A DNA stretch of 64,000 bases from Natronosalvus caseinilyticus (GTDB taxonomy: Archaea > Halobacteriota > Halobacteria > Halobacteriales > Natrialbaceae), in the NCBI RefSeq assembly GCF_017357105.1, contig NZ_CP100395.1, positions 124,001-188,000 on the forward strand. Reading direction: 5' to 3'. The position numbers and the translations under genes were made by a program. Below the pieces are notes generated by a model. It searched no databases and was not told the origin of the DNA. It saw nothing but the letters and a program-made list of their open reading frames with translations. Shown here piece by piece: positions 41,894-59,031 of the stretch; the stretch's first letter is position 1; the number at the start of each line of letters is the position of its first letter.

Positions 41894-41961
41894 AATACTT
41901 ATATATCCTGCAAATAATTATCGACTCGTCTTGTGATACCGACTAACAGAGGGAGGCCGTG
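41894..41961 (+). promoter_or_regulatory. cas operon promoter and ribosome-binding site
   Basis: A TATA-like CTTATATATCC is centred near 41,900, and a strong Shine-Dalgarno GGGAGG (41,951-41,956) lies 5 nt before the cas6 ATG at 41,962. Unlike many haloarchaeal genes, this first cas gene therefore has a short leader with a ribosome-binding site. The downstream cas genes overlap and can be translationally coupled. Confidence 0.6.
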
Positions 41962-42768
41962 ATGCGAGTGCTCGTACATCTCCGTGCACGAGCAGACACG
42001 ACCTACCAGAACGACTACCACCACAAGCTTCGTGGTCGGATCTGGAACGCACTCGAAGGAACAGAGCATGAAGCGGTTCACGACACGAATGAGCCGCCTG
42101 GGTTCTCGTTCAGCAACCCATTCCCACCGCAGGACATGTCTGAAGGTGACCAACGGACCCTTATTGTCTCAGCGCCACAGGAAGAGCTTCTCTCGGTGAT
42201 CGCAACGGATCTCCAAGAAAACCCCGAACTGAACGTTGGGGAAATGCCGTTTACCGTCCAGGGTCTCTCGGCCATCACGCCAGATGTCGGTGAACCGGGA
42301 AGCAGCGGGACGATCGGGACAGGGACCGGACTACTCGTCCGGATCCCACCGTGGCGCTGTGAGGACTACGGGATCGATAACCCAGGCGAAGAGGCAGTAT
42401 ATTGGCGCCCGGAGCACACAATCGAACCACTCCGCGAACAGCTTGAGGCGAATCTGGATAAGAAATACAGCCTGTTCGGCCCGGAATACCTCCCGGGTCC
42501 AAGCGAAACCAACGGTGACCTCTTTGATGGCTACGAACTGCTGAAAACCTTCGCCGTGCCATTGCAGGTAACAACGGACCAGAGGCTAACGTACGTACTC
42601 TCGAAATGGCAGTTCGATTATACGGTCCGCAATGATGATCATCGACGTCATCTCAACCTCGCACTGGACTGTGGACTCGGCGAGCGGAACGCGCTGGGGC
42701 TGGGATTCTGCAATCTTACCGAGAAACGCGATCCGTACGGAAAGCCAGCGCCAGAGGTGCATGGATGA
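41962..42768 (+). CDS. cas6: Cas6 crRNA-processing endoribonuclease
   Basis: A 268-residue protein (GTG 41,959 also in frame). The ferredoxin-like N-terminus MRVLVHLRARADTTYQNDYH carries the usual conserved His/Tyr region. The C-terminal glycine-rich loop LDCGLGERNALGLGFCN is the Cas6 hallmark. Cas6 cleaves the repeat RNA to release crRNAs of the downstream array. It is the first gene of the type I-B operon and overlaps cas8b by 4 bp. Confidence 0.92.
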   Translation: MRVLVHLRARADTTYQNDYHHKLRGRIWNALEGTEHEAVHDTNEPPGFSFSNPFPPQDMSEGDQRTLIVSAPQEELLSVIATDLQENPELNVGEMPFTVQGLSAITPDVGEPGSSGTIGTGTGLLVRIPPWRCEDYGIDNPGEEAVYWRPEHTIEPLREQLEANLDKKYSLFGPEYLPGPSETNGDLFDGYELLKTFAVPLQVTTDQRLTYVLSKWQFDYTVRNDDHRRHLNLALDCGLGERNALGLGFCNLTEKRDPYGKPAPEVHG

Positions 42769-44915
42769 GTCTTCTTCCGGAGCCTTCGATGTTCAATGAA
42801 CGCTATGGAGATGATGCAAAACTGGCGAGGAAACTCCCCAATCGACCGATCTCCTCGCTCCGCGATCTCCAATATGTATACGGGCGATTGTACACGCTTG
42901 CGACCGCCGGTGGAGGCGAGTACGCGGCCTATCTCACGCCGGAGAAGTCGACCGACCTGTTCGACGAGCCCGAGAGCCTGCTCTATCTCCGGGTCGACCT
43001 AAGTGGGGACGAACCGGGCCTCGATCCCGATAGGCCAGTCGGCGTTGAACGATACGGAGAGGGGAAGGTCGAAGCGGTCGCCCATTCGTGGTATGACTCC
43101 GCGCGGGGGTTCGACCACAGCGTCACACATCGTACAGGCAAGAACAAGGAGCCCGAGAAGGTCGCAGAGTACCTCCACGAGCGACTCACCGCGTGGGCGG
43201 TCGACGACGTGATTCAGGACGCCGCAGCCGACCACGAGGACGGCTGGATCATCAACGAACTCGCTACTCTTGGCGAGACGGAGAATATCCGGGAACGGAT
43301 TGAGACTGCCATCGATGAACAGCTCGACGGCAAGACGACGGCGCTCACGACCGTGGCGGTCAAAGTCGAGCCGGACGGCAAGTTTCTCCTCCCGGGCAAG
43401 GCGAGCCCGGTGTTCAATGAGGCGATGCGGGCGCGAAAGCAGGCGAAACTCGTTTCAAAGGGAGAGGCCACCGACTCTGTAGGCGACGCGACCGACCTCG
43501 TAACCGGTCACTCCGGGCCAGCTGTCGGGACTGCCGAAGACCCGCTGAACTACTTCCTCGGCAAGCAACTCGAGAAGTTTCCAGGGTTCGACCCAGACCA
43601 GGCGTGGCGAACCCACCCAGTATCGGAGGACGTCGCGGTGACGCTGATGAACGCAAGCACGTTCGTCGACGCCTGCGACTACTACACGATGGGTGCGAAC
43701 GTCTACTACCTCCCGTACTTCTTCGGACGGCTCGGTCCGGAAGACGCGCGGGACCTCTATCAGGTACTCTACGAGCTCGTTCACGCTGAGGATATGACGC
43801 CGATCGAAAGCGCCTACCGGAGCTACCAAGATACCCCGCGCCTCCAGGAAGTGGGCAAGCGGTTCCGCTTCTACGTCGCCGCGGTGATGGAACACCAGAC
43901 CAAACGCTTCGACGTCTTCGGCGACAGCATGGACGGGACGCTGTTCTCGCCTGTCGAACTCACGCGAAAACACGAGCAGGTGCTCCAGTCGTGGCTGTAC
44001 GATGCGGAGGGCGACGCCGACCATCCCGATCCTCGGCTTCGGGCCGCGTTCCCGACACCGGACAACTGGGACATCTTCGTCTCGGAGGAGTCAACACTGC
44101 TCAGTACCCTCGCCACGGGGTGGTACTTCGAACAGACGTTCGCTACGGGCGATGACGACGCCAGTGCCGATGATTACCGAATCCGAGCACTCGTTGCCGT
44201 GCTCTCAGGTGAGCCACTCGACGTCAAAGCTGTACTTACCGAGTACGTCGACCGGCTCCTGGAGGACGAAGGTGAGGAGTTCCCGAGTTTTCGTGTGGCC
44301 GCACAGTACACGCAGCTCTGTGCACTCGCCGACGCTGGCCTGCTGACCGGGCGTGAAGCGTACGAACCAGTCGCGGAACCACTGCAGTTGACAGACGATC
44401 ATCCAACAAACGACATGTACTCAGACACACCAGCCCGAGCCGACGGCGGGAACGTCGCCGGGGCGCGGGAGACAAAGCTCGAACAGTTCCTCGATCAGAC
44501 ACCGGCTCTCGACGAGGAGCAGCCCGAACGACGTGGCAGCTTCCTCCTCGGCGCGCTGGTCGGCCAGGTGACTGGCTACCAGCAGGTGAGCGAGGGGCGC
44601 TCGACCACACTGATCGATCAGTATCCGATCAAAGCCGTCACCGAGTCAAAGCTGAAGCGACTCGCCAGCGACGTGTTGAACAAGAACGTCGTCTACTCCA
44701 GGGAGAACAATATGGCCGGAACGATGTACCGTGAGGTCGTCGACCGTCTGGTGACGACCCTACCCCGGATCGACATCGACGGCGACTGGGAACTCGACAC
44801 GACCGACCTCCGATTCTACTACTCGCTCGGGGTCGCCTACGGGATGAACAACTGGGCGAGCAGCGACGACGAACAGGCCGACGACCAGCCCACAGCCACC
44901 CAGGAGGAAGCATGA
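42765..44915 (+). CDS. cas8b: Cas8b large subunit of the type I-B Cascade
   Basis: A 716-residue protein beginning MSLLPEPSMFNERYGDDAKL, with ISSLRDLQYVYGRLYTLATA and repeated acidic and aromatic segments typical of the haloarchaeal Cas8b (Csh1) family. Near the N-terminus LYLRVDLSGDEPGLDPDRPV appears, and AARDLYQVLYELVH-like helices lie centrally. Cas8b recognises the PAM and helps recruit Cas3. Sequence divergence is normal for this subunit, so position between cas6 and cas7 adds weight. It overlaps both neighbours by 4 bp. Confidence 0.92.
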   Translation: MSLLPEPSMFNERYGDDAKLARKLPNRPISSLRDLQYVYGRLYTLATAGGGEYAAYLTPEKSTDLFDEPESLLYLRVDLSGDEPGLDPDRPVGVERYGEGKVEAVAHSWYDSARGFDHSVTHRTGKNKEPEKVAEYLHERLTAWAVDDVIQDAAADHEDGWIINELATLGETENIRERIETAIDEQLDGKTTALTTVAVKVEPDGKFLLPGKASPVFNEAMRARKQAKLVSKGEATDSVGDATDLVTGHSGPAVGTAEDPLNYFLGKQLEKFPGFDPDQAWRTHPVSEDVAVTLMNASTFVDACDYYTMGANVYYLPYFFGRLGPEDARDLYQVLYELVHAEDMTPIESAYRSYQDTPRLQEVGKRFRFYVAAVMEHQTKRFDVFGDSMDGTLFSPVELTRKHEQVLQSWLYDAEGDADHPDPRLRAAFPTPDNWDIFVSEESTLLSTLATGWYFEQTFATGDDDASADDYRIRALVAVLSGEPLDVKAVLTEYVDRLLEDEGEEFPSFRVAAQYTQLCALADAGLLTGREAYEPVAEPLQLTDDHPTNDMYSDTPARADGGNVAGARETKLEQFLDQTPALDEEQPERRGSFLLGALVGQVTGYQQVSEGRSTTLIDQYPIKAVTESKLKRLASDVLNKNVVYSRENNMAGTMYREVVDRLVTTLPRIDIDGDWELDTTDLRFYYSLGVAYGMNNWASSDDEQADDQPTATQEEA

Positions 44916-46033
44916 GCGACAACGCATACGCCGACGACAGCTACGAGCCCGTGACGAACCGTTCCGAGATTGTCTTCTGCTACGATGCCGTCGACGCAAA
45001 CCCCAACGGCAACCCACTGAGCGGGGCGAATCGCCCACGTATCGACCCCGAGACTCAGCAGGCGATCGTGACCGACGTCAGGCTGAAGCGCTATCTGCGT
45101 GACCAGCTCGACGACGACGGTCACGGCGTGTACGTCCAGAATGTGAAAAACGAAGCTGGTGAGCAGTCGTCACGTGAAGACCTGCTCGAATCTCGCCTCC
45201 GGGGTCTCGAGCCCGAGGACTGGGACTTCGACGATCTCGACGACGAGGACGAGGCCAAGCTCCGGGAGGAGGTGTTCGGAGCATTCCTCGACAACAGCGC
45301 CGACGTTCGGTATTTTGGCGCGACGATGAGCGTCGACATGAAAGGGAGCTACGAACCGTTCGCTGAACACCTCCCGGACCACTTCACCGGCCCCGTCCAG
45401 TTCTCACCTGCGAAGACGCTCCACCCCGTCACCGAAAACGAGGAGTACAACAGCCTCACCAGCGTCATCGCGACCGGAGAGGGCAAAGAACAGGGTGGGT
45501 TCGACCTCGACGACCATCGTATTCAATACGGTTTCATCGCGTTCCACGGGCTGGTCGACGAACACGGAGCGGCCGATACGAAGCTTTCCACAGCAGACGT
45601 TGAGCGTCTCGACACGCTGACGTGGCGCGCGATCAAGAACCAGACTATCAGTCGGAGCAAAGTCGGCCAAGAGCCCCGGCTCTATCTCCGCGTGGAGTAC
45701 AAGGACGAGAGCTTCCACCTCGGTGGGCTAACGCGGGATCTCGACATCGACGAAGATCGCTCGGTACCCACCGACGAACTCCGGAATGTTCGGGAGTTCA
45801 CGCTCGACGGGACCGAGCTAGTCTCCCGACTGGACCGCCACGACGACCGCATCGCTCGCGTTCGCGTCGTTGCGAGCGACGTACTCGACGTGACCGTCGA
45901 CGATGAGACCTACACGGCCGGCGACGAGGTCGGCGAACACGGCTTCTACGACGTCCTACGTGGGGCGGTGGGCGACGATATAGTCGAGGTCGTCAACGTC
46001 TACGACGAGGCCGCCGCCACGATGCCAGAGTGA
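44912..46033 (+). CDS. cas7: Cas7 backbone subunit (Csh2 type)
   Basis: A 373-residue protein with the Cas7 core: EIVFCYDAVDANPNGNPLSG, RIDPETQQAIVTDVRLKRYL, DVRYFGATMSVDMKG, GPVQFSPAKTLHPVTENEEY and the thumb region. Cas7 polymerises along the crRNA spacer and measures the target. The ATG overlaps the cas8b stop (ATGA). Strongly conserved and diagnostic of type I-B in haloarchaea. Confidence 0.95.
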   Translation: MSDNAYADDSYEPVTNRSEIVFCYDAVDANPNGNPLSGANRPRIDPETQQAIVTDVRLKRYLRDQLDDDGHGVYVQNVKNEAGEQSSREDLLESRLRGLEPEDWDFDDLDDEDEAKLREEVFGAFLDNSADVRYFGATMSVDMKGSYEPFAEHLPDHFTGPVQFSPAKTLHPVTENEEYNSLTSVIATGEGKEQGGFDLDDHRIQYGFIAFHGLVDEHGAADTKLSTADVERLDTLTWRAIKNQTISRSKVGQEPRLYLRVEYKDESFHLGGLTRDLDIDEDRSVPTDELRNVREFTLDGTELVSRLDRHDDRIARVRVVASDVLDVTVDDETYTAGDEVGEHGFYDVLRGAVGDDIVEVVNVYDEAAATMPE

Positions 46034-46824
46034 TGTCCCAAGAAACACTCGAAGGCTGGGCCGACGAGGATGACACCCTCCCGGAGACGTGTCTCTCCTT
46101 CGAACTCCGCGGAGAGTGGGGCCACTTCCGACGCGTCGAGGGGAACATCGTCAAACAGACCTACCGGATTATCCCGCGGACGACCGTCGCCGGCCTCGTT
46201 GCCGCGGTACTCGGGCTAGAGCGGGATAGCTACTACGAAGCGTTCGGCCCTGAAGTCTCGTCGATCGCAGTGGAGGCAATCGAGGAGCTTCGGACGATTA
46301 ACCTGCCACAGAATACGCTCTCGACGGCTAAGGAACACATGACGACGATGCCCAGCCGCGGGCACGCACGCATCTCGATGCCCGACCCGACGAAACTCCG
46401 ACAACAGCACAACTACGAAGTGTTAGTCGAACCCGCCTATCGGGTTGATCTTCGACTCGCAAACGACGAACTTCGTACCCGTTTTCGAGACCACCTCCGT
46501 AACGGTACTGCCTACTACCCACCGAGTCTCGGGCTCTCCGAGCATCTTGCAGAGATCACGTATCTGGGCGAGTTCGACGTGACTCCACGTGAGCGCGAAA
46601 CCACCGAAGTGGATTCCGCGGTGCTCGAGGCGGTCGACAACGTCGAACTGGCGCCAGAGACCGAGATCAAAGTCGAACGGTCGCCCGCGTTCATGGCGGC
46701 CGACGAAGATGGCCGGACGACGACAGCGTTCCAGTCGATCGCATACGCGACCAGGACGGAGCCGATTCTGGTACAGAACGTCGAGACCCACGAAGTCGAC
46801 GGCCGCCGAGTGATGTTCTCGTGA
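46033..46824 (+). CDS. cas5: Cas5 subunit of the type I-B Cascade
   Basis: A 263-residue protein from ATG 46,033 (TGATG overlap with cas7). The N-terminus TCLSFELRGEWGHFRRVEGN and RTTVAGLVAAVLGLERDSYY contains the typical 'F-x-L-x-G-x-x-x-H-F-R' and 'P-R-T-T-x-x-G-L' motifs of Cas5h/Cas5b. Cas5 binds the 5' handle of the crRNA. The C-terminal half, with EIKVERSPAFMAADEDGRTT, is as usual for the family. Confidence 0.93.
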   Translation: MSQETLEGWADEDDTLPETCLSFELRGEWGHFRRVEGNIVKQTYRIIPRTTVAGLVAAVLGLERDSYYEAFGPEVSSIAVEAIEELRTINLPQNTLSTAKEHMTTMPSRGHARISMPDPTKLRQQHNYEVLVEPAYRVDLRLANDELRTRFRDHLRNGTAYYPPSLGLSEHLAEITYLGEFDVTPRERETTEVDSAVLEAVDNVELAPETEIKVERSPAFMAADEDGRTTTAFQSIAYATRTEPILVQNVETHEVDGRRVMFS

Positions 46825-46843
46825 ACCGTCGGAGGCCGTAGCC

Positions 46844-49537
46844 ATGGTCGAGTTCACGGAACGACCGTCGCACGAAGACCCTGACGGAAAACCAATCCCG
46901 CTCGACAGACATCTCTACGATGTTTGCGAGCGGGTAGGCTGGCTCATCCCCGATGACGCCAGGACACCTGCAGGGGATTCGCTCGTCGAATTGGTAGAGG
47001 CGGTGGCACTGATACATGACTTCGGGAAACTGACTGCGTGGTTTCGCGACCATCTTCTCTCGGACAGTGACGGTAAACCGGACGGACCGAAGCACCACGC
47101 ACCGATTTCAGCGCTGCTCGCATACTACGTACTGGAATCTCGAGAGTTCGATGAAACCGATTGTCTCCTCGGCTTTCTCGCCGTTGCGAGACATCACGGC
47201 CGCCTCCCCGACGCGGTCGACTACGTTCATCGGGCGGGCATCGAACAGTCCGGCCGAATCCAGACGCTCTACCGGTCGGACGTGCGCAGCCAGGCGGCGC
47301 ACATCGACGAAACCGTCCCCAAGCTAGCGAGTGTGCTCGTCGAACGGGCGACAAACAGCAACGGCAATTGGAACGAGTTCCTGGAACGGCTCTCCCGTCC
47401 CGAATCGGCCACCGAACTCGGATGGCTCGCAGAGGGAGCCTGTAGTGGCCGGCGTCTCCGCCCCGCTCCGGAGAAACTTCCATCTGGCTTCTACGAGTCG
47501 GTGCTTCAAGTCTGGAGCGCGCTCGTTTTTGCCGACAAGGCGAGCGCAGCGAGCCTGACGACAGGAGTCGAGGTAGGGAAGGATGCCTACCGATCAACGT
47601 CACCCGAACGACAGGCGATCGACGACCACATCGCCGATATCCGAGCCGAGAACGCCACTTCGGACCTCGGTTCACGCACGGAACGACTGAACGGGCGACG
47701 CGAAGAGGCTCGGCAAAAGGTCCGAGACCGCGCAGCCGAGTTCGTTGCCGATGATCGACGCGTCGCGACCCTAACGCTCCCCACAGGAATGGGGAAGACG
47801 CTCACTGGGTTGGATGCCGCTCTGACCGTCCTCGAAGAGACCGGTACTGCGTCGACCACGGGCATAAAGGAGGGGCGTCTCATCTATGCGCTGCCGTACA
47901 CATCGATCATCGATCAGGTGGCAGACGAGAGCCGTGAGCTGTTCGAGGAGAGCGACGGGGACGAGCGGATCACAGTTGACCACCACCTCGCGGAAACGCT
48001 GGTTTCACCGCCGGAAACCGCCGAGGAAGTCGCCGACGATGCCGTCGAGAACGTCGCCGCCTTGCTGGGAGAGAGCTGGCGCACGGGGATGGTCGTAACG
48101 ACGTTCGTCCAGCTATTCGAGAGCCTCACCGGCCCGACAAACGCCCGTTCGATGAAACTCCCATCGTTGTACGGGAGCGTAGTCGTTCTTGACGAGCCGC
48201 AGGCGCTGCCCCTGGAGTGGTGGCCGCTCGTGGATCGATTAGTGGAACTGTTGACCGAGGAGTACGGCGCGTCAGTGATCACCATGACAGCTACACAGCC
48301 CAAACTACTTTCTGCTGGAGATCAGGAGCCATTCTCGCTCGTTTCGGATCCCGATCCGTACTATGCGGAACTCGACAGACTCGATTTCGCACTCCACCCG
48401 TCCGCGGTCGCAATGCTTCCCGGCTGGGATGGAGAACAATCGGACACCGATGGGGGTGCCGAGCAGGGATCCCTCTCGTATGATCGAGCTGGCGAACTCG
48501 TAGCAAGACGAGCCGAGGACGGCGACTCCGTACTGACGATATGCAACACGATTGATAGCTCGAGGGAACTTACTGAGGCAGTCGCCAACCAAACGGCGAT
48601 ACTGAACGTCAATGAGATGTACGCTGAGCAACTCGACGCTACGGAGCACCGGACCGATTCAGTCCGCCCCGAGAAGACGCTTGCCGACGCGGTTCGTCAA
48701 CGTCATGAGAGGGAACCATTATTAATACATCTCACAACACGACACCGGCCATGTGATCGACGCCACCTCATCGACGTCGCGACCGATCTCGCCGAGGCAG
48801 GCGAGCCGGTACTGTTCATCTCCACTCAGCTCGTCGAGGCCGGCGTCGACGTGAGCTTCGACGAGGTGATCCGCGATTTCGCACCGATGGACAGCCTGGT
48901 GCAGGCTGCGGGCCGGTGTAATCGATCGTACGATCGTGCTCGCGGACGCGTGACGGTCTGGCAGCTTTCGCCACCGCCGAACCGTGAGATGACGCCGGCC
49001 AGCGCAGTATATGGTCGCGGAGAGAGTCTGACAAAGCTGACGGGGCAAGCGTTGGCGACGGTATACGATGGCGAGCCGATACCTGAACCGGATGTGACTC
49101 GGGACGCCGTCGATCACTACTTCGAGTTACTCGAGCAGCGCGATGTCGGCGCCGACGAGTACGTCGATTACTTGGAGCGGGCAGAAGCCGAACAGCTCAG
49201 CAAGCTCTCGCTGATCGACCAGCGTCCTGCCGTCGACGTGATCGTGACGAGAACCGCTGAAGAACGGAAGACGGTAGAGGAGATCCGACGGATGTTCGCC
49301 GAGTATCGCTGGGACAAGCTCAACGACCTCGTCGAGTCGACCGCCGACTGGCAGGTCTCCATTCCCGTCTACCCCGGCGACAACGAGACGATAGAGAAAC
49401 TCAGTGCGTGTGAGCCGTTGTTCTCGGGTGCCGATCGGCTGGTGCTGGACGGTCGTCCGGGACGGCACAACGGCTACTTTGACGCCACCGACGGCGTCGT
49501 CATCCCCGATACCAGCGTGGAGGCTCGATTGTTGTGA
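46844..49537 (+). CDS. cas3: Cas3 HD nuclease-helicase
   Basis: An 897-residue protein. The N-terminal HD nuclease has LIHDFGK (His58-Asp59) and the later ARHHGRLPD. The helicase has Walker A LPTGMGKT (Lys318), motif VVLDEPQALP (Asp450), TMTATQP (motif III), and STQLVEAGVDVSFDEVIRDF, followed by QAAGRCNR (motif VI). HD is fused N-terminally, as in most type I systems. It degrades Cascade-marked DNA. It begins 19 bp after cas5 and ends overlapping the GTG of cas4. Confidence 0.96.
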   Translation: MVEFTERPSHEDPDGKPIPLDRHLYDVCERVGWLIPDDARTPAGDSLVELVEAVALIHDFGKLTAWFRDHLLSDSDGKPDGPKHHAPISALLAYYVLESREFDETDCLLGFLAVARHHGRLPDAVDYVHRAGIEQSGRIQTLYRSDVRSQAAHIDETVPKLASVLVERATNSNGNWNEFLERLSRPESATELGWLAEGACSGRRLRPAPEKLPSGFYESVLQVWSALVFADKASAASLTTGVEVGKDAYRSTSPERQAIDDHIADIRAENATSDLGSRTERLNGRREEARQKVRDRAAEFVADDRRVATLTLPTGMGKTLTGLDAALTVLEETGTASTTGIKEGRLIYALPYTSIIDQVADESRELFEESDGDERITVDHHLAETLVSPPETAEEVADDAVENVAALLGESWRTGMVVTTFVQLFESLTGPTNARSMKLPSLYGSVVVLDEPQALPLEWWPLVDRLVELLTEEYGASVITMTATQPKLLSAGDQEPFSLVSDPDPYYAELDRLDFALHPSAVAMLPGWDGEQSDTDGGAEQGSLSYDRAGELVARRAEDGDSVLTICNTIDSSRELTEAVANQTAILNVNEMYAEQLDATEHRTDSVRPEKTLADAVRQRHEREPLLIHLTTRHRPCDRRHLIDVATDLAEAGEPVLFISTQLVEAGVDVSFDEVIRDFAPMDSLVQAAGRCNRSYDRARGRVTVWQLSPPPNREMTPASAVYGRGESLTKLTGQALATVYDGEPIPEPDVTRDAVDHYFELLEQRDVGADEYVDYLERAEAEQLSKLSLIDQRPAVDVIVTRTAEERKTVEEIRRMFAEYRWDKLNDLVESTADWQVSIPVYPGDNETIEKLSACEPLFSGADRLVLDGRPGRHNGYFDATDGVVIPDTSVEARLL

Positions 49538-50082
49538 GTGACGGCCCCGTCACTCGGCTGTTGGCGACAGCTCGAGGCGACGCCGTCGACGATCCGTTCC
49601 GCGTCACCGGAGTGATGATGCAGTACTACTACGTCTGTGAACGCGAGCTCTGGTTCGAGAGTCGGAACATCGAGATCGACCGAGAAAACGCGAGCGTCGC
49701 CCGGGGAACTCGTGTCGACGAATCCTCCTACGGCGAGCGTACACAGGAGAATCTGCGGTTGGGGATGATCTCCCCCGACTTACTCGAGGACGGACGGGTG
49801 GTCGAGGTGAAGCCTTCCTCGGCACTGACTGAGCCGGCCCGCATGCAGCTCTCGTACTACCTTTGGTACCTTGATCGAGTGATGGACGTACAGCGCGAAG
49901 GCGTATTGGCGCATCCAACCGAACGCCGACGTGAGGAAGTATCGTTAGACGAGGATCGACGCGAGAAAGTCGAGTCGGCGATCCGTAGTATTCACGCAAT
50001 CGTGACCGCGGAGCGTCCACCGGAAGCCACCGAGAAGCCATACTGTGAGTCGTGCGCCTACTACGACTTCTGTTGGGTCTGA
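49534..50082 (+). CDS. cas4: Cas4 nuclease for spacer acquisition
   Basis: A 182-residue protein with a GTG start overlapping the cas3 stop (GTGA). It is a RecB-type nuclease: GVMMQYYYVCERELWFES (first Fe-S Cys), LLEDGRVVEVKPSSALTEPA (E-V-K of the D-E-K active site), QLSYYLWYLDRVMD (the QxxxY motif), and the C-terminal CESCAYYDFC providing the remaining Fe-S cysteines. Cas4 trims prespacers with PAM selection. The stop is 2 bp before the cas1 start. Confidence 0.94.
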   Translation: MSDGPVTRLLATARGDAVDDPFRVTGVMMQYYYVCERELWFESRNIEIDRENASVARGTRVDESSYGERTQENLRLGMISPDLLEDGRVVEVKPSSALTEPARMQLSYYLWYLDRVMDVQREGVLAHPTERRREEVSLDEDRREKVESAIRSIHAIVTAERPPEATEKPYCESCAYYDFCWV

Positions 50083-50084
50083 TC

Positions 50085-51077
50085 ATGGACAGGAACTACC
50101 ACATTTTTTCAGACGGACGCATCGAACGAAGCGAAGACACGGTCCGACTGGAGACTATCGACGGTGAGAAAAAACACATTCCCGTCGAGCATGCCGAAGC
50201 AATCTACCTCCACGGACAGATCGACTACAATACGCGGCTGATGTCGTTTCTCAACGACCATGGTGTCGCCGTACACGTCTTCGGCTGGAACGATCGCTAC
50301 GCGGGGTCGCTGATGCCTGAACGCGGCCAAACGAGCGGGCGAACCGTTGTCGAACAGGTCCGGGCATACGACGACCCCGAGCGACGGCAGACGATCGCCG
50401 CCTCGTTCGTCCGCGGCAGTATCCACAATATGCGGACGAACGTCACATACTACAACAGTCGGGACTACGACCTCGGAAGAGTCCTCGAGGACCTGGATGA
50501 CGCGGTTTCACGCATTGACAGCACGAAGGATATCTCAGAACTCATGGGCGTCGAAGCGACAGCCCGCCGGGCGTACTACCGAACGTTCGATACGGTGCTC
50601 CCCGACTCGTTCTCATTTGACAGCCGGGAGTACAACCCACCGCCGAACCCCGTGAATGCGCTCATCTCGTTCGGGAACAGTCTGGTATATGCTAACTGTG
50701 TGTCGGCGATCCGGGCTACTGCGCTCGATCCCGCAATCAGCTATCTCCACGAACCCGGAGAGCGACGCTACTCCCTCTCACTTGATATCGCTGACCTGTT
50801 CAAACCGGTGTTGACGGATCGGCTACTATTCCGGTTAGTCAACCGGAGACAGATCAGCCGTGATGATTTCCGGAATGAAGTCGGTTCCTGCCTCCTCAAC
50901 GAAGCTGGACGGACAACGTTCCTGAAGGAGTTTGAACAAACGCTCGAGCGAACAGTTGAACACCCAGAACTGAACCGGAAGGTAAGCTATCAGTATCTGC
51001 TCCGGCTCGAGGCGTACAAGCTGAAAAAACACCTATTGACTGGCGAGCCATACGAGCCGTTCAAGCGGTGGTGGTAG
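50085..51077 (+). CDS. cas1: Cas1 integrase
   Basis: A 330-residue protein from ATG 50,085 (MDRNYHIFSDGRIERSEDTV). Catalytic residues are visible as Glu157 (GVEATARRAYY), His222 (YLHEPG) and Asp234 (SLSLDIADLFKP). Cas1-Cas2 inserts new spacers next to the leader. The upstream in-frame extension to 50,052 lies inside cas4 and is not used. The stop is immediately followed by the cas2 ATG. Confidence 0.96.
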   Translation: MDRNYHIFSDGRIERSEDTVRLETIDGEKKHIPVEHAEAIYLHGQIDYNTRLMSFLNDHGVAVHVFGWNDRYAGSLMPERGQTSGRTVVEQVRAYDDPERRQTIAASFVRGSIHNMRTNVTYYNSRDYDLGRVLEDLDDAVSRIDSTKDISELMGVEATARRAYYRTFDTVLPDSFSFDSREYNPPPNPVNALISFGNSLVYANCVSAIRATALDPAISYLHEPGERRYSLSLDIADLFKPVLTDRLLFRLVNRRQISRDDFRNEVGSCLLNEAGRTTFLKEFEQTLERTVEHPELNRKVSYQYLLRLEAYKLKKHLLTGEPYEPFKRWW

Positions 51078-51338
51078 ATGTACGTTATCGTCGTCTACGA
51101 TATGGAGGCCGACCGCACCCACCTAATGCTGAAACTATGTCGTCGGTACCTGATCCACGTCCAGAATTCAGTGCTTGAAGGTGAGATTTCGGAGGGCGAT
51201 TTGACGACGATGAAAGGGAAGATAGACGATCTACTGCAAGAAGGAGAATCGGTAGTGATCTACGAACTCTCCTCAGATAAGCTATTGAACCGTTCGGTGT
51301 ACGGCGATGACCCGACCGAAGACAGTCGGTTTCTCTAG
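51078..51338 (+). CDS. cas2: Cas2 adaptation protein
   Basis: An 86-residue protein, the usual length. The first strand YVIVVYDMEADR carries the conserved Asp, and RRYLIHVQNSVLEGEIS the Cas2 'V-Q-x-S-V-x-E-G' motif. It forms the central dimer of the Cas1-Cas2 integrase. Last gene of the operon, 100 bp before the first repeat. Confidence 0.95.
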   Translation: MYVIVVYDMEADRTHLMLKLCRRYLIHVQNSVLEGEISEGDLTTMKGKIDDLLQEGESVVIYELSSDKLLNRSVYGDDPTEDSRFL

Positions 51339-51438
51339 CTGATGTCGACCCCCGGGGGATCCAGGAGGATTGCGGGTCGACAGAAATAGTGAAGTGAATT
51401 CCGTGGATAGAGAGGATATGGTGGTCAAATTCACCATG
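51339..51438 (+). promoter_or_regulatory. CRISPR leader
   Basis: About 100 bp between cas2 and the first repeat. It contains a near-palindromic GTCGACCC...GGGTCGAC pair (about 51,345-51,382) and AT-rich sequence just before the array. Its location next to cas2 and before the well-conserved repeats marks the integration end of the array. The array is transcribed on the plus strand away from the cas genes. Confidence 0.65.
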
Positions 51439-54400
51439 GATTCAGACGTACCCTTGTGGGGTTGAAGCGTGAGGACGTAGATGTGCTCCGGATCGTCTGG
51501 GCGATTCAGACGTACCCTTGTGGGGTTGAAGCTCGAGGCCGACGTCGAGGACGAAGCAGAAGGGACGGATTCAGACGTACCCTTGTGGGGTTGAAGCAGT
51601 CGGATCTGGACGCCATCGTCGGTCTCGACGGCGATTCAGACGTACCCTTGTGGGGTTGAAGCGGCTCGTGGCTGGTCACACTCAACAGCGTCCCGGTGAT
51701 TCAGACGTACCCTTGTGGGGTTGAAGCGACGGGAGCTCGTGATTGCCATCCTCGTCGACGAAGATTCAGACGTACCCTTGTGGGGTTGAAGCGCCGAGAG
51801 GGCGAGGCCGCCGACGATCGCTACGCGCTGATTCAGACGTACCCTTGTGGGGTTGAAGCACGGTCGGAACACCTCGGCAGATTTTCGCCTCGGCGATTCA
51901 GACGTACCCTTGTGGGGTTGAAGCCGAGCGACGCCGACTCCAACCGGCCCGTCCAGTCGGATTCAGACGTACCCTTGTGGGGTTGAAGCCGGAAGTGTAC
52001 GAGATGGTCATCGAGGAGGTCTGCGGATTCAGACGTACCCTTGTGGGGTTGAAGCGATTGATGCAGGGTCCGGCGAAACCATAGAATCGGGATTCAGACG
52101 TACCCTTGTGGGGTTGAAGCGACGAGGAACTCAACGAACCGCAAGGCGCCTACGAGATTCAGACGTACCCTTGTGGGGTTGAAGCCAAATTGTCGCCGTC
52201 GCCAGCTTGTCGGAATCGCTGATTCAGACGTACCCTTGTGGGGTTGAAGCGAGATTCGACCGCCTATCAAGCGCGCCGACGGGTTGGATTCAGACGTACC
52301 CTTGTGGGGTTGAAGCGTCGAGTACAACACCTACAGCCTCGAGGACGCCCGCGATTCAGACGTACCCTTGTGGGGTTGAAGCCGAAAGACGAGATGCGGG
52401 AGAACGGATGGGATCCCGGATTCAGACGTACCCTTGTGGGGTTGAAGCCCGACGACAGAGGTCTTTATCTGGTACACTGACGACGGATTCAGACGTACCC
52501 TTGTGGGGTTGAAGCCCGACGACAGAGGTCTTTATCTGGTACACTGACGACGGATTCAGACGTACCCTTGTGGGGTTGAAGCCGCGACAGCGTATCGTCC
52601 GAGGCACGCCCGGAGAGATTCAGACGTACCCTTGTGGGGTTGAAGCGCGTGACGGTCAAAGGCGGCGCTCGATCGAAGACCGAGATTCAGACGTACCCTT
52701 GTGGGGTTGAAGCGACGCCCTCTCGTGGCTCGATGATGTCCTCGACACGATTCAGACGTACCCTTGTGGGGTTGAAGCTCGCGCACGAAGGGCGGCCTCC
52801 AGGCGAAGGACTAGATTCAGACGTACCCTTGTGGGGTTGAAGCAACGGCCTGGGCGCCTCACTCCGACTCCGGGTCACGGTGATTCAGACGTACCCTTGT
52901 GGGGTTGAAGCGGCCGGCCCTGTCACGGTAAGCGACAGAGTGGTCGATTCAGACGTACCCTTGTGGGGTTGAAGCGCACTCAGGGCACTGCCAGACGGAG
53001 ACGACGTCAGATTCAGACGTACCCTTGTGGGGTTGAAGCGCCACATTGACTCGAGTGACAGCACGCTCCTGACCGAGATTCAGACGTACCCTTGTGGGGT
53101 TGAAGCTTCCGACCCGTTCGACGCCCTCTCGTGGCTCGATGAGATTCAGACGTACCCTTGTGGGGTTGAAGCGTTTGCCTCAACTCAGCATACACGACTC
53201 AAAATGACGATTCAGACGTACCCTTGTGGGGTTGAAGCGTCGAGGAAGGCGAACGCGAACGGATTACCGAGTGGATTCAGACGTACCCTTGTGGGGTTGA
53301 AGCGGTCGCGAACCGATCACGCCGATACTCCCGACGAGGATTCAGACGTACCCTTGTGGGGTTGAAGCCTCCGGAAGGAGTTTCCGGAAGTGTACGAGAT
53401 GGTCGATTCAGACGTACCCTTGTGGGGTTGAAGCGAGTCAGTCCGTCGCGGATCGAGGCGCTATGTAGAGGATTCAGACGTACCCTTGTGGGGTTGAAGC
53501 GCGTGACGGTCAAAGGCGGCGCTCGATCGAAGACCGATTCAGACGTACCCTTGTGGGGTTGAAGCTACTACCGTCACAGACCCACGCTCGGAAGCGGGCA
53601 GATTCAGACGTACCCTTGTGGGGTTGAAGCGAGCCTACGACAGACGTGATCTACACCGCGAGCGTCGGATTCAGACGTACCCTTGTGGGGTTGAAGCTCG
53701 ATGTCGAGTGCGTCCAGGACGATCTGCCGGAGCAGATTCAGACGTACCCTTGTGGGGTTGAAGCACCACTCAGGTCCCGGCTAAGGTAGACTCTCCCGCG
53801 ATTCAGACGTACCCTTGTGGGGTTGAAGCCCCAACCCGTCTCGCGTCGTCGATAAGGTCCTCGTGGATTCAGACGTACCCTTGTGGGGTTGAAGCACACT
53901 CGTTAGTGACCGGCCCGAGCCATATCTTCAAGATTCAGACGTACCCTTGTGGGGTTGAAGCATAGGCTACCACCCTCTGGCAGTGCGAGAGAGTCGATTC
54001 AGACGTACCCTTGTGGGGTTGAAGCAAGCTCTCCGTCAACGAGGACCGCGTTATCCCGCGATTCAGACGTACCCTTGTGGGGTTGAAGCCCGATGTCGTC
54101 GACGATCTCCTCGAGGAGCGCGGATTCAGACGTACCCTTGTGGGGTTGAAGCCTCGAGGGCCGGCTTGTTGCCGATCTGATCGAGAGGATTCAGACGTAC
54201 CCTTGTGGGGTTGAAGCGACCTCGAGGACGCCCTCCTGGGTCGCGACGTCGACGAGATTCAGACGTACCCTTGTGGGGTTGAAGCCTGGCCGCACTCGGT
54301 CGACGTGAGATTGATCCCCAGGATTCAGACGTACCCTTGTGGGGTTGAAGCACAGATAGCGCAGTACAGCGTCGTCATTCGAACTTCGATTCAGACGTAC

Positions 54401-57400
54401 CCTTGTGGGGTTGAAGCGAGCGATTGCATGAGGCGATGGAGTTGGCAGAGGGATTCAGACGTACCCTTGTGGGGTTGAAGCCGCTGTCTCGAAGGCGCCC
54501 GGCCCCCCGTCGACTCAGGATTCAGACGTACCCTTGTGGGGTTGAAGCTCAATAAGCCAATCTATTGCGACCGATATTCGCTGAGATTCAGACGTACCCT
54601 TGTGGGGTTGAAGCTTGCGGACCATCTCGCGATCCGCTTCATCGCGCCAGATTCAGACGTACCCTTGTGGGGTTGAAGCTCTGACTCGCCAGTGCAGTAT
54701 TTGCACCAGCTAACGGATTCAGACGTACCCTTGTGGGGTTGAAGCGACGTCCACCACTGCAACCGGCTCCGGTGGGACAACCGATTCAGACGTACCCTTG
54801 TGGGGTTGAAGCCCACCTCGAACCTACGGAGGGCGCGTGCGATGAGCGATTCAGACGTACCCTTGTGGGGTTGAAGCCACGCGAGTTCCTGGCGAACGCC
54901 CTCCTCGCCGTAGATTCAGACGTACCCTTGTGGGGTTGAAGCGCGTAGTCGGCGTTCCAGGCCGCACCGCACCGCGCGGATTCAGACGTACCCTTGTGGG
55001 GTTGAAGCCGGGTTGCGTCGATAGGTACGCGACGACCGCCTCGGATTCAGACGTACCCTTGTGGGGTTGAAGCAGCCTATTTATATACCCCTCCATAAAC
55101 TGTATGGCGCGATTCAGACGTACCCTTGTGGGGTTGAAGCATCGTGACCACTCCTCGAGGTCGACGTCGTCGGGGATTCAGACGTACCCTTGTGGGGTTG
55201 AAGCTCTGACTCGCCAGTGCAGTATTTGCACCAGCTAGATTCAGACGTACCCTTGTGGGGTTGAAGCGACCTCATCTTCGATCGTTCCGTAGCGGTCGGT
55301 CGATTCAGACGTACCCTTGTGGGGTTGAAGCCTGCAGCGGCCTCCTTCGCCTGGCCGATCGCGATGGGATTCAGACGTACCCTTGTGGGGTTGAAGCTCT
55401 TCCCTGCAACGTAGACGCTCGGTCGCTCAGTGATTCAGACGTACCCTTGTGGGGTTGAAGCGCTCGAGCGACGCTCATCGATCGCACACCTCCGGATTCA
55501 GACGTACCCTTGTGGGGTTGAAGCGGTCGCATCCGTGACGTTCAGGTTACGTCTGCCGAGATTCAGACGTACCCTTGTGGGGTTGAAGCCTCCATGATAC
55601 GGTCGTCGTCCCAGCCCTGGTCGAAGATTCAGACGTACCCTTGTGGGGTTGAAGCGTCATTATGACGTTCTTATGCGCTCACTAACGGGCGATTCAGACG
55701 TACCCTTGTGGGGTTGAAGCACGGAGAAACTGACGTCTCGGTTCACTCCCGAGCGGATTCAGACGTACCCTTGTGGGGTTGAAGCCGAAAGACGAGATGC
55801 GGGAGAACGGCTGGGATCCCGGATTCAGACGTACCCTTGTGGGGTTGAAGCGTCCGGTTCGTCAGTCACAGTGGGGTCACCTAATCAGATTCAGACGTAC
55901 CCTTGTGGGGTTGAAGCATCATGTCGACGCGCTGGCCTTCGATCTCTTCGCGGATTCAGACGTACCCTTGTGGGGTTGAAGCCTCGTCAGCATCGAGGTA
56001 CTCCCGCGTTCCGAACTCGATTCAGACGTACCCTTGTGGGGTTGAAGCCCCCATCGATCCACGCTCCTTGAGGCGATCTTTCGCGATTCAGACGTACCCT
56101 TGTGGGGTTGAAGCGCGATCGTGATCGTCGGCGCGTGGTACGTCCTCGCGATTCAGACGTACCCTTGTGGGGTTGAAGCTCGAAGGTTGCGTCAGGGTCT
56201 ACGTGAATGTGAACGGATTCAGACGTACCCTTGTGGGGTTGAAGCATCGCGAAATCGAGGAGCACTCGATTCGCCTCTGCGATTCAGACGTACCCTTGTG
56301 GGGTTGAAGCGAGACGTCTGTCGGGAGCGCATCGATCGCAGTCACCGATTCAGACGTACCCTTGTGGGGTTGAAGCATCGCGACACCTCCGAGCCGTGGG
56401 CCGATACCGGATTCAGACGTACCCTTGTGGGGTTGAAGCCTCGCAGGGACAGCCGCAGCGCTCACGGTCGGCGGATTCAGACGTACCCTTGTGGGGTTGA
56501 AGCCCCCGAGGAGAGACCGAGGAGGACGCAGACGGCGAGATTCAGACGTACCCTTGTGGGGTTGAAGCGGCGGGATCATGACCTACCTCCTCTGGGCCCG
56601 CCGGATTCAGACGTACCCTTGTGGGGTTGAAGCCGGTTGTCGATGTCCCCCGTCTCCGAGATCGCGAACGATTCAGACGTACCCTTGTGGGGTTGAAGCG
56701 TGATTTTCACGTCATCGCATTCGAGAGTGCTGAAAGATTCAGACGTACCCTTGTGGGGTTGAAGCGGACGAGGCGCCGCAGCGGGCGCCGGGGCAACCGT
56801 GATTCAGACGTACCCTTGTGGGGTTGAAGCGTTATCCATGTCTGTTGGTCCGGGGATCGCGACGCGATTCAGACGTACCCTTGTGGGGTTGAAGCGCTGA
56901 CGAGGACTCGTCAGGAGGCGGTGGAGGCGGATTCAGACGTACCCTTGTGGGGTTGAAGCGTCGACAAAACCGGGACGAAAACCGCGAGCTTCTGATTCAG
57001 ACGTACCCTTGTGGGGTTGAAGCAGGAGGCGAACCACAGTGACCGCCGATCGAACCCCGATTCAGACGTACCCTTGTGGGGTTGAAGCTCCGTATCAGAG
57101 ATAGCATACTTCTCCCGCAGAGATTCAGACGTACCCTTGTGGGGTTGAAGCGAGTAGCCGATTTCCGAGAGCCAGCGCCGAAGCTAGATTCAGACGTACC
57201 CTTGTGGGGTTGAAGCGGACACTGAGATCACCCGAAGACCCGCTCTTGGATTCAGACGTACCCTTGTGGGGTTGAAGCGCGGCGACTCCATCAGCGAGCC
57301 GACGTCGACGAACTGATTCAGACGTACCCTTGTGGGGTTGAAGCATAGGAGTCTCAGGGTGGTCTCGAGAGGCCGACTCGGATTCAGACGTACCCTTGTG

Positions 57401-59031
57401 GGGTTGAAGCCAGGGGTTCAAACCGATGAACGCCTATCTCGCTGGATTCAGACGTACCCTTGTGGGGTTGAAGCATCCACGTCCCCGAGGGCGTCGGCAT
57501 CCACGATCTCGATTCAGACGTACCCTTGTGGGGTTGAAGCGAAGGGTGGTCTCGAACGTCGAACCCTGGGGGTGAGATTCAGACGTACCCTTGTGGGGTT
57601 GAAGCCCACGATCGACCCCGTGAGCGTCGATGGTGACTACGGATTCAGACGTACCCTTGTGGGGTTGAAGCGTTCAGCACGAACACAGAGGGGCTGATAC
57701 CGGTCGGATTCAGACGTACCCTTGTGGGGTTGAAGCAACGACAGCGACCCGTCCCAGTGCTCGACGCCCGAGATTCAGACGTACCCTTGTGGGGTTGAAG
57801 CTACCCAACTGATGCCCCAACGGTCGGAAACGTCGAGATTCAGACGTACCCTTGTGGGGTTGAAGCACACCATCCTGACCGTACTCATCGCCGTATCGCT
57901 GGATTCAGACGTACCCTTGTGGGGTTGAAGCGTCATTCCGACTCCGTGAGACCGCCCCTGAGTCGATTCAGACGTACCCTTGTGGGGTTGAAGCGCGTGC
58001 AGAAACCCGTCTCCACAGCTCTAGATCGACGATTCAGACGTACCCTTGTGGGGTTGAAGCGGCTCGCGGAGTTGAGCGACTACGCCGGCGCCGATCGATT
58101 CAGACGTACCCTTGTGGGGTTGAAGCACGACGAGGTAACAGATCATGCCATGGACCGCCTGAGATTCAGACGTACCCTTGTGGGGTTGAAGCCCCGTGTA
58201 CAGGTCCTCGTTGGTCCCGTTCGGGGGATTCAGACGTACCCTTGTGGGGTTGAAGCGAAGAGATCGTCGTCGAGATAGAGGAACATTTGAGATTCAGACG
58301 TACCCTTGTGGGGTTGAAGCCGTCGGATCGCCTGGTCCACGGCGAGAAGGCGACGATTCAGACGTACCCTTGTGGGGTTGAAGCGCGATCGCGCTGATCC
58401 AGGGCGGAGACGATCCCGTGATTCAGACGTACCCTTGTGGGGTTGAAGCGAATCGCCGCCGTCCGTTGCTGCAACTAAGGACGTGATTCAGACGTACCCT
58501 TGTGGGGTTGAAGCTGAATGGGTTTACTCGACAGTGCACAAAACGCGTGGATTCAGACGTACCCTTGTGGGGTTGAAGCGGTTCTACAGTCGAATGGGTT
58601 AGCTCCAGCGGTGGATTCAGACGTACCCTTGTGGGGTTGAAGCGAACTCTTGCTCGAGGGCACCCGGCGGATGGACGCGATTCAGACGTACCTTTGTGGG
58701 GTTGGAGCCTCCGATCATGATAACCACACGTACAAGGCCGTGATTCAGACGTACCCTTGTGGGGTTGAAGCCTCCCCCGTTAACGGTTGCAGCGTCGACC
58801 TCGCCATGATTCAGACGTACCCTTGTGGGGTTGAAGCCGTGTAGGAGGTTTTCCCTCGCTCGAGTGACTGAGATTCAGACGTACCCTTGTGGGGTTGAAG
58901 CCACAAGCTCACCGCCGGCGAACTCTGCCCCGAGAAGATTCAGACGTACCCTTGTGGGGTTGAAGCGCCGTCTACGGACTTCGCGGAACTGATCACCAGG
59001 TGGTTCAGACGTACCCTTGTAGAGTTGAAGC
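51439..59031 (+). CRISPR. Type I-B CRISPR array, about 117 repeats
   Basis: By eye I find 117 copies of a 30-nt repeat that begins GATTCAGACGTACCC and ends TTGTGGGGTTGAAGC, with spacers of about 33-38 nt (mean period about 65 bp). This gives 116 spacers. The repeat closely resembles other haloarchaeal type I-B repeats (GTTTCAGACG...TTGAAGC). All but two copies appear identical. The repeat at 58,679 has two changes (CCTTTGTGG, TTGGAGC). The last one at 59,002 has three (GGTTCAG, TGTAGAG), as expected at the trailer end. Several spacers are duplicated or overlap each other (see findings). The leader is on the left. Confidence 0.98.

Follow-up and report, generated by a model that had tools for sequence, protein, structure and literature searches.

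The closest described relatives of the CRISPR-Cas locus analysed here are the plasmid-borne type I-B systems of Halobacterium hubeiense (pSTJ001), Halobacterium sp. DL1 and Salarchaeum sp. JOR-1. All three share 80-81% DNA identity with it over 94-97% of the cas operon in the same gene order, as well as a conserved leader and a near-identical repeat, which, however, starts with GTTTCAG in place of the GATTCAG found here. Their arrays hold 44-55 spacers compared with 116 in ours, their hosts belong to another family, and no spacers common to this array and the three plasmid systems were found. H. hubeiense carries a separated pair of spacers with the same start and different lengths, as our array does, and Salarchaeum carries tandem identical duplicates reminiscent of our sp16/17. 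The type I-B system of Haloarcula hispanica, known from primed adaptation to HHPV-2, is alike in its cas1-8 content, TTC PAM and leader-end growth (PMC3936756). In that system 94% of newly acquired spacers have a TTC PAM, priming is required, and several spacers are taken from one virus with acquisition ongoing despite immunity (PMC3936756). Acquisition was observed experimentally in H. hispanica, whereas here we reconstruct it from the completed array and infer priming as the route of re-acquisition from protospacer location and strand.

Spacer re-acquisition is uncommon in general, and array-evolution models take it as very rare. Applied to CRISPRCasdb, SpacerPlacer counted 8 re-acquisitions versus 695 duplications among 24,090 spacers (PMC11472070), a catalogue in which, like here, tandem duplications are common and re-acquisitions are recognised. 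Set against those 8 in 24,090, the one array described below contains three separated same-protospacer pairs and two overlapping pairs, although the rates are not strictly comparable, as length-variant and overlapping pairs were perhaps counted differently there.

The array and its cas operon

The locus lies in the window, i.e., the whole 64-kb stretch of DNA that was analysed, on a 230-kb replicon of a 4.2-Mb genome assembled in 2 contigs (G000:C2 carries the window). A recount of the array gave exactly the repeat number and boundaries of an earlier note made from the letters of the window (Table 1), with spacers of 32-38 nt. The 30-nt repeat belongs to the haloarchaeal family Rfam RF01337 (CRISPR-DR24; 115 matches over the gathering score), and its exact form, GATTCAGACGTACCCTTGTGGGGTTGAAGC, is present in 115 of the 117 repeats, the others having 2 mismatches (at 58679) and 3 mismatches (terminal repeat, at 59002). 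The whole genome contains the same 115 exact copies, all from the array; no copies outside the array were seen within the window at up to 7 mismatches, and no CreTA-type degenerate ectopic repeat near the cas genes was seen in the rest of the window at up to 10 mismatches. The description of the array as very large is true in size, but such a size is ordinary for the family, where 10 of the 42 genomes having the same repeat type contain at least 100 repeat copies.

Upstream of the array, the operon order is cas6-cas8b-cas7-cas5-cas3-cas4-cas1-cas2, with every gene above an NCBIfam cut-off. This gene content bears out the earlier type I-B call. The locus is a standard, canonical type I-B CRISPR-Cas of haloarchaea, whose kind is well described, and a complete Cas4-Cas1b-Cas2 adaptation module adjoins the array. 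The array is polarised, with the leader at one end and a degenerate repeat at the distal end. Because the 100 bp from cas2 to the first repeat are conserved in the three Halobacterium/Salarchaeum plasmid systems, the leader can be placed at the 51439 side, and low-numbered spacers are therefore the newest; growth would take place at this cas2-side leader end. The operon region (42000-51400) is ~80% identical over 97% to Halobacterium plasmid operons of another family, and congeners are without this repeat, which suggests that the cas operon may have spread between families on plasmids.

Table 1. Features of the CRISPR-Cas locus, in window positions
Feature	Positions	Strand	Profile or basis
cas6	41959..42768	+	TIGR01877
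cas8b/csh1	42765..44915	+	TIGR02591
cas7/csh2	44912..46033	+	TIGR02590
cas5b (Cas5h)	46030..46824	+	TIGR02592
cas3, HD + helicase	46844..49537	+	TIGR01596, TIGR01587
cas4	49534..50082	+	TIGR00372
cas1b; start possibly in-frame ATG at 50085	50052..51077	+	TIGR03641
cas2	51078..51338	+	TIGR01573
leader, entry end for new spacers	51339..51438	+	conserved with three Halobacterium/Salarchaeum plasmid systems
CRISPR array, 117 repeats / 116 spacers	51439..59031	+	recount and Rfam RF01337
sp9, start inside sp30 protospacer right after TTC	51990..52025	+	
sp15, A at 52408 the single difference from sp67, silent in one frame	52383..52418	+	
sp16 + sp17, adjacent identical 37-nt spacers (sp16 52449-52485, sp17 52516-52552)	52449..52552	+	
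sp19, 37 nt, start same as sp32	52647..52683	+	
sp20, start inside sp26 protospacer right after TTC	52714..52748	+	
sp26, older overlapping partner of sp20	53107..53142	+	
sp30, older overlapping partner of sp9	53369..53404	+	
sp32, 35 nt, older copy of sp19 protospacer	53501..53535	+	
block with sp44, sp49, sp53, sp54, all matching RepA gene of NZ_CP084478.1	54286..54978	+	
sp50, 36 nt, start same as sp58	54680..54715	+	
sp58, 33 nt, older copy of sp50 protospacer	55205..55237	+	
sp67, older variant of sp15, C at 55811	55786..55821	+	
sp116, oldest spacer, matches NZ_CP084478.1 on other strand, TTC PAM	58967..59001	+	

Six related spacer pairs

All spacers were compared pairwise, with shuffled spacers as a control. 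The best pair score was 14 for shuffled spacers versus 20-37 for six related pairs, the three duplicates listed in the earlier note scoring 33-37. Their coordinates and their 2- and 3-nt length differences proved exact to the base, and the check proposed there (extracting spacers, allowing length differences, comparing flanks) confirmed these duplicates, found the flanks of the separated copies unshared and added three pairs, sp15/sp67, sp26/sp20 and sp30/sp9. sp19 and sp32 have 35 nt in common, but sp32 ends 2 nt earlier on the 3' side, where sp19 carries an extra 'GA'; sp50 and sp58 have 33 nt in common, and here sp58 ends 3 nt earlier on the 3' side, where sp50 carries an extra 'ACG'. sp15 and sp67 represent the same 36-nt protospacer and are identical at 35/36 positions; the one A/C difference lies at the wobble position of a Gly codon in an open frame (KDEMRENGWDP), where it is silent, as expected from sampling two related viruses. 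The last two pairs overlap: sp20 opens with the 23 nt that close sp26 (shift 13), and sp9 opens with the 20 nt that close sp30 (shift 16). A peptide likeness between sp16 and sp34 (PTTEVFIWY / PTTDVIYT) was judged by eye to be a coincidence.

For the adjacent pair sp16/17, the best reading is that a single repeat-spacer unit was duplicated in tandem, via slippage or recombination between repeats. We compared it with 1,234 spacers from 19 other haloarchaeal loci of several species, the pair counts also including the array of the window. Of 13 pairs of repeated spacers in adjacent positions, 11 were identical, compared with 2 of 8 separated pairs (Fisher p = 0.018; p = 0.024 once triples were collapsed), baseline counts that are small and pooled across species. 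The relatives contribute 10 adjacent identical pairs and two separated yet identical pairs (G126, G021), and triples occur; the remaining separated pairs differ by length, one base, or start. The high share of identical adjacent pairs supports the duplication by recombination that had been suggested for sp16/17. Had one prespacer or protospacer been integrated twice in a row, the copies would also be adjacent, and adjacent re-acquisition occurs, since sp33/34 of G019 are adjacent with unequal length; nevertheless, exact equality in most adjacent pairs, together with the triples, fits slippage better than a variable 3' cut, and we regard successive integration as an unlikely origin of sp16/17. 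In a relative, a 129-spacer array (L137, G111:C1) with two repeat variants (last base C/A) contains three separate tandem identical duplications.

In the separated duplicates the neighbouring spacers differ between the copies, and the lack of common neighbours argues against block duplication. The best reading of sp50/58, sp15/67, sp20/26 and sp9/30 is that each pair was acquired independently, from one element or from related ones; sp50/58 is the clean case, with an extra 'ACG' that is not repeat-derived. sp19/32 is probably a re-acquisition too, but this pair alone could reflect dinucleotide slippage, because the extra 'GA' abuts a repeat starting with 'GA'. The earlier proposal of independent acquisition with different trimming is thus supported, with the reservation that sp19/32 alone fits slippage as well. 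An already-recorded target would appear to have been re-sampled at least three times in this array, and probably five; clustering of the re-acquisitions in time is suggestive only (p = 0.057).

The PAM and the spacer ends

TTC lies right before the start of sp20 inside sp26 and right before the start of sp9 inside sp30. It makes up 1% of the trinucleotides in these spacers, which gives a probability of ~1e-4 for finding it by chance in 2/2 overlapping pairs; the one overlapping pair in G019 also has TTC before its inner spacer (1/1). Such pairs reveal the PAM from the array itself, without any known virus. External protospacers (element-type matches) have TTC at the 5' side in 7/8 cases (sp25, sp29, sp49, sp53, sp54, sp94, sp116) and CTC for sp44, and confirm a TTC PAM.

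The opposite end of the spacers is variable. All five same-start, unequal-length pairs (2 here; sp90/99 and sp33/34 in G019; sp11/15 on pSTJ001 of H. hubeiense, the closest relative system) vary at the PAM-distal end only. Among 1,199 pooled spacers, C at -3 from the 3' end reaches 43% versus 30% background (p = 3e-21), an excess which indicates that the PAM-distal cut is itself sequence-selective; in this array alone the values are 34% versus 32%, i.e., no clear preference. The pooled excess agrees with a sequence-tuned PAM-distal cut that has reportedly been described for H. hispanica, in 2017 work on I-B spacer size. We propose that Cas4-Cas1-Cas2 anchors the 5' end of each spacer to the TTC PAM, with the result that re-acquired spacers would share their start base, and that the PAM-distal end would be cut 33-37 nt away by a loose ruler, giving unequal lengths. 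The separated pairs would be independent re-acquisitions, drawn each time from one element or from a close relative of it.

One may instead attribute all duplicates to recombination between repeats, by block duplications with later deletions and minor slips at the ends of spacers. That tandem duplication is frequent is plain from sp16/17 here and from the adjacent identical pairs of relatives, it dominates CRISPRCasdb (695/805 duplication candidates; PMC11472070), and sp19/32 may be a dinucleotide slip. However, the separated duplicates are without common neighbours, their length change is PAM-distal in 5/5 pairs, the additional bases of sp50 do not come from the repeat, the sp15/67 difference is a silent change, and duplication cannot yield overlapping spacers shifted to the next TTC, which makes an origin of every pair by recombination quite improbable. 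Misassembly of this 7.6-kb repeat-rich region, judged here from the assembly alone, would be most plausible for sp16/17. Misassembly makes exact copies, though; it does not shorten a copy by 2-3 nt, introduce a silent mismatch or shift an overlap to the next TTC. Patterns of the same sort are present in independently assembled genomes, and this genome has only 2 contigs, so that we give an artefact next to no credence. Tandem unit duplication together with PAM-anchored re-acquisition, probably primed, in a canonical type I-B locus is, in our judgement, very probably the correct reading.

Targets and a possible role for priming

The protospacer counts are lower bounds, as the DNA searches across many genomes mostly kept just the two top-scoring candidates of each genome, and family-wide searches omitted some spacers. 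sp29 (34/35), sp25 (35/37) and sp94 (32/35) matched related haloarchaeal genomes, and five spacers matched Natrinema sp. DC36 plasmid unnamed6 (NZ_CP084478.1, 33.9 kb), namely sp44 (33/36), sp54 (32/36), sp53 (30/35), sp49 (26/35) and sp116 (26/35); a reversed-spacer control gave no protospacer matches. sp44, sp49, sp53 and sp54 all lie in one gene and on one strand, and the protein of this gene has 30.6% identity to RepA of virus SNJ1. The protospacer of sp116 is located 0.5-1.6 kb from those in the rep gene, on the opposite strand. This arrangement fits priming by sp116 because in H. hispanica acquisition downstream of a priming protospacer yields mainly opposite-strand spacers (PMC3936756); 4/4 rep-gene spacers are on the predicted strand relative to sp116, although four events carry little weight. 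Re-acquisition probably took place in primed adaptation, with a resident, possibly mismatched spacer already targeting the element, which would account for sp15/67, for overlapping spacers at neighbouring TTC and for the sp44-54 cluster on one rep gene. Renewed sampling of a region for which a matching spacer is already present is how primed adaptation works.

The SNJ1-RepA-like gene of NZ_CP084478.1 (L065 7496-9160) is annotated hypothetical, and the plasmid also carries several integrase/recombinase genes and ParA; it is possibly a virus-like or integrative plasmid. No relatives of its RepA protein were found in either collection searched. The idea that sp50/58 target the CxxCTG motif of the RepA C terminus was unsupported across four RepA homologues.

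For the related pairs themselves, the sp30/sp9 union (52 nt) alone stands out in an order-wide genome search with the duplicates: it is contiguous in genome G355 at 79% identity, within a small ORF that matches PHROG 26393, and the sp30 site there is preceded by TTC. Phage collections gave no convincing DNA protospacer for array spacers, nor did a plasmid collection for the duplicates and their neighbours; IMG/VR degenerate-pattern scans with the six pairs gave nothing, except for 7 contigs with the loosest pattern, and a genome-collection pattern scan gave none for sp15/67. The earlier note had suggested a search against viral and plasmid sequences; the exact source element of the six pairs was not found in the phage, plasmid, IMG/VR and genome collections, and the protospacers of other spacers came from the searches of related genomes. 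Weak 20-30 nt matches to actinobacterial phages were taken as chance, and numerous genome matches of sp20/26 were rejected, as they look like common GC-rich coding sequence.

Spacer sp29 (53304-53338) matches an S49 (SppA-like) peptidase gene (L070 11144-11178, TTC PAM) on a 20.8-kb contig from a draft genome of another genus, where PHROG profiles include a head maturation protease; the matched gene may be of chromosomal or of viral origin. sp114 (58838-58871), the third oldest, matches a chromosomal class I/II aminotransferase gene of this genome (L185, G000:C1:572872) at 30/34 positions and the aminotransferase gene of two congeners (L163, L164) at 31/34, with mismatches at wobble positions and GGC, not TTC, as 5' flank; it was probably taken from a relative's chromosome or is a tolerated partial self-match. 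A spacer of relative G137 (L144) matches 28 nt of sp108 (58450-58484) with few mismatches on the opposite strand; the two arrays would thus have sampled the same kind of element.

The system is of a known kind, and its record of re-sampling is unusually easy to read. Spacers that vary in length, have diverged silently or overlap represent re-sampling that might escape a count based on the identity of whole spacers. They offer a cheap, database-wide route to measuring how often natural arrays re-acquire a target and by what rule the PAM-distal end is cut. It is tempting to speculate, tentatively and with the balance still somewhat against it, that natural haloarchaeal arrays record, in their single spacers, repeated sampling of TTC-anchored sites with a loose 3' ruler preferring C(-3), and that re-acquisition is commoner in this lineage than models assume. 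If true, re-acquisition rates, priming history and target divergence would be readable from finished genomes.
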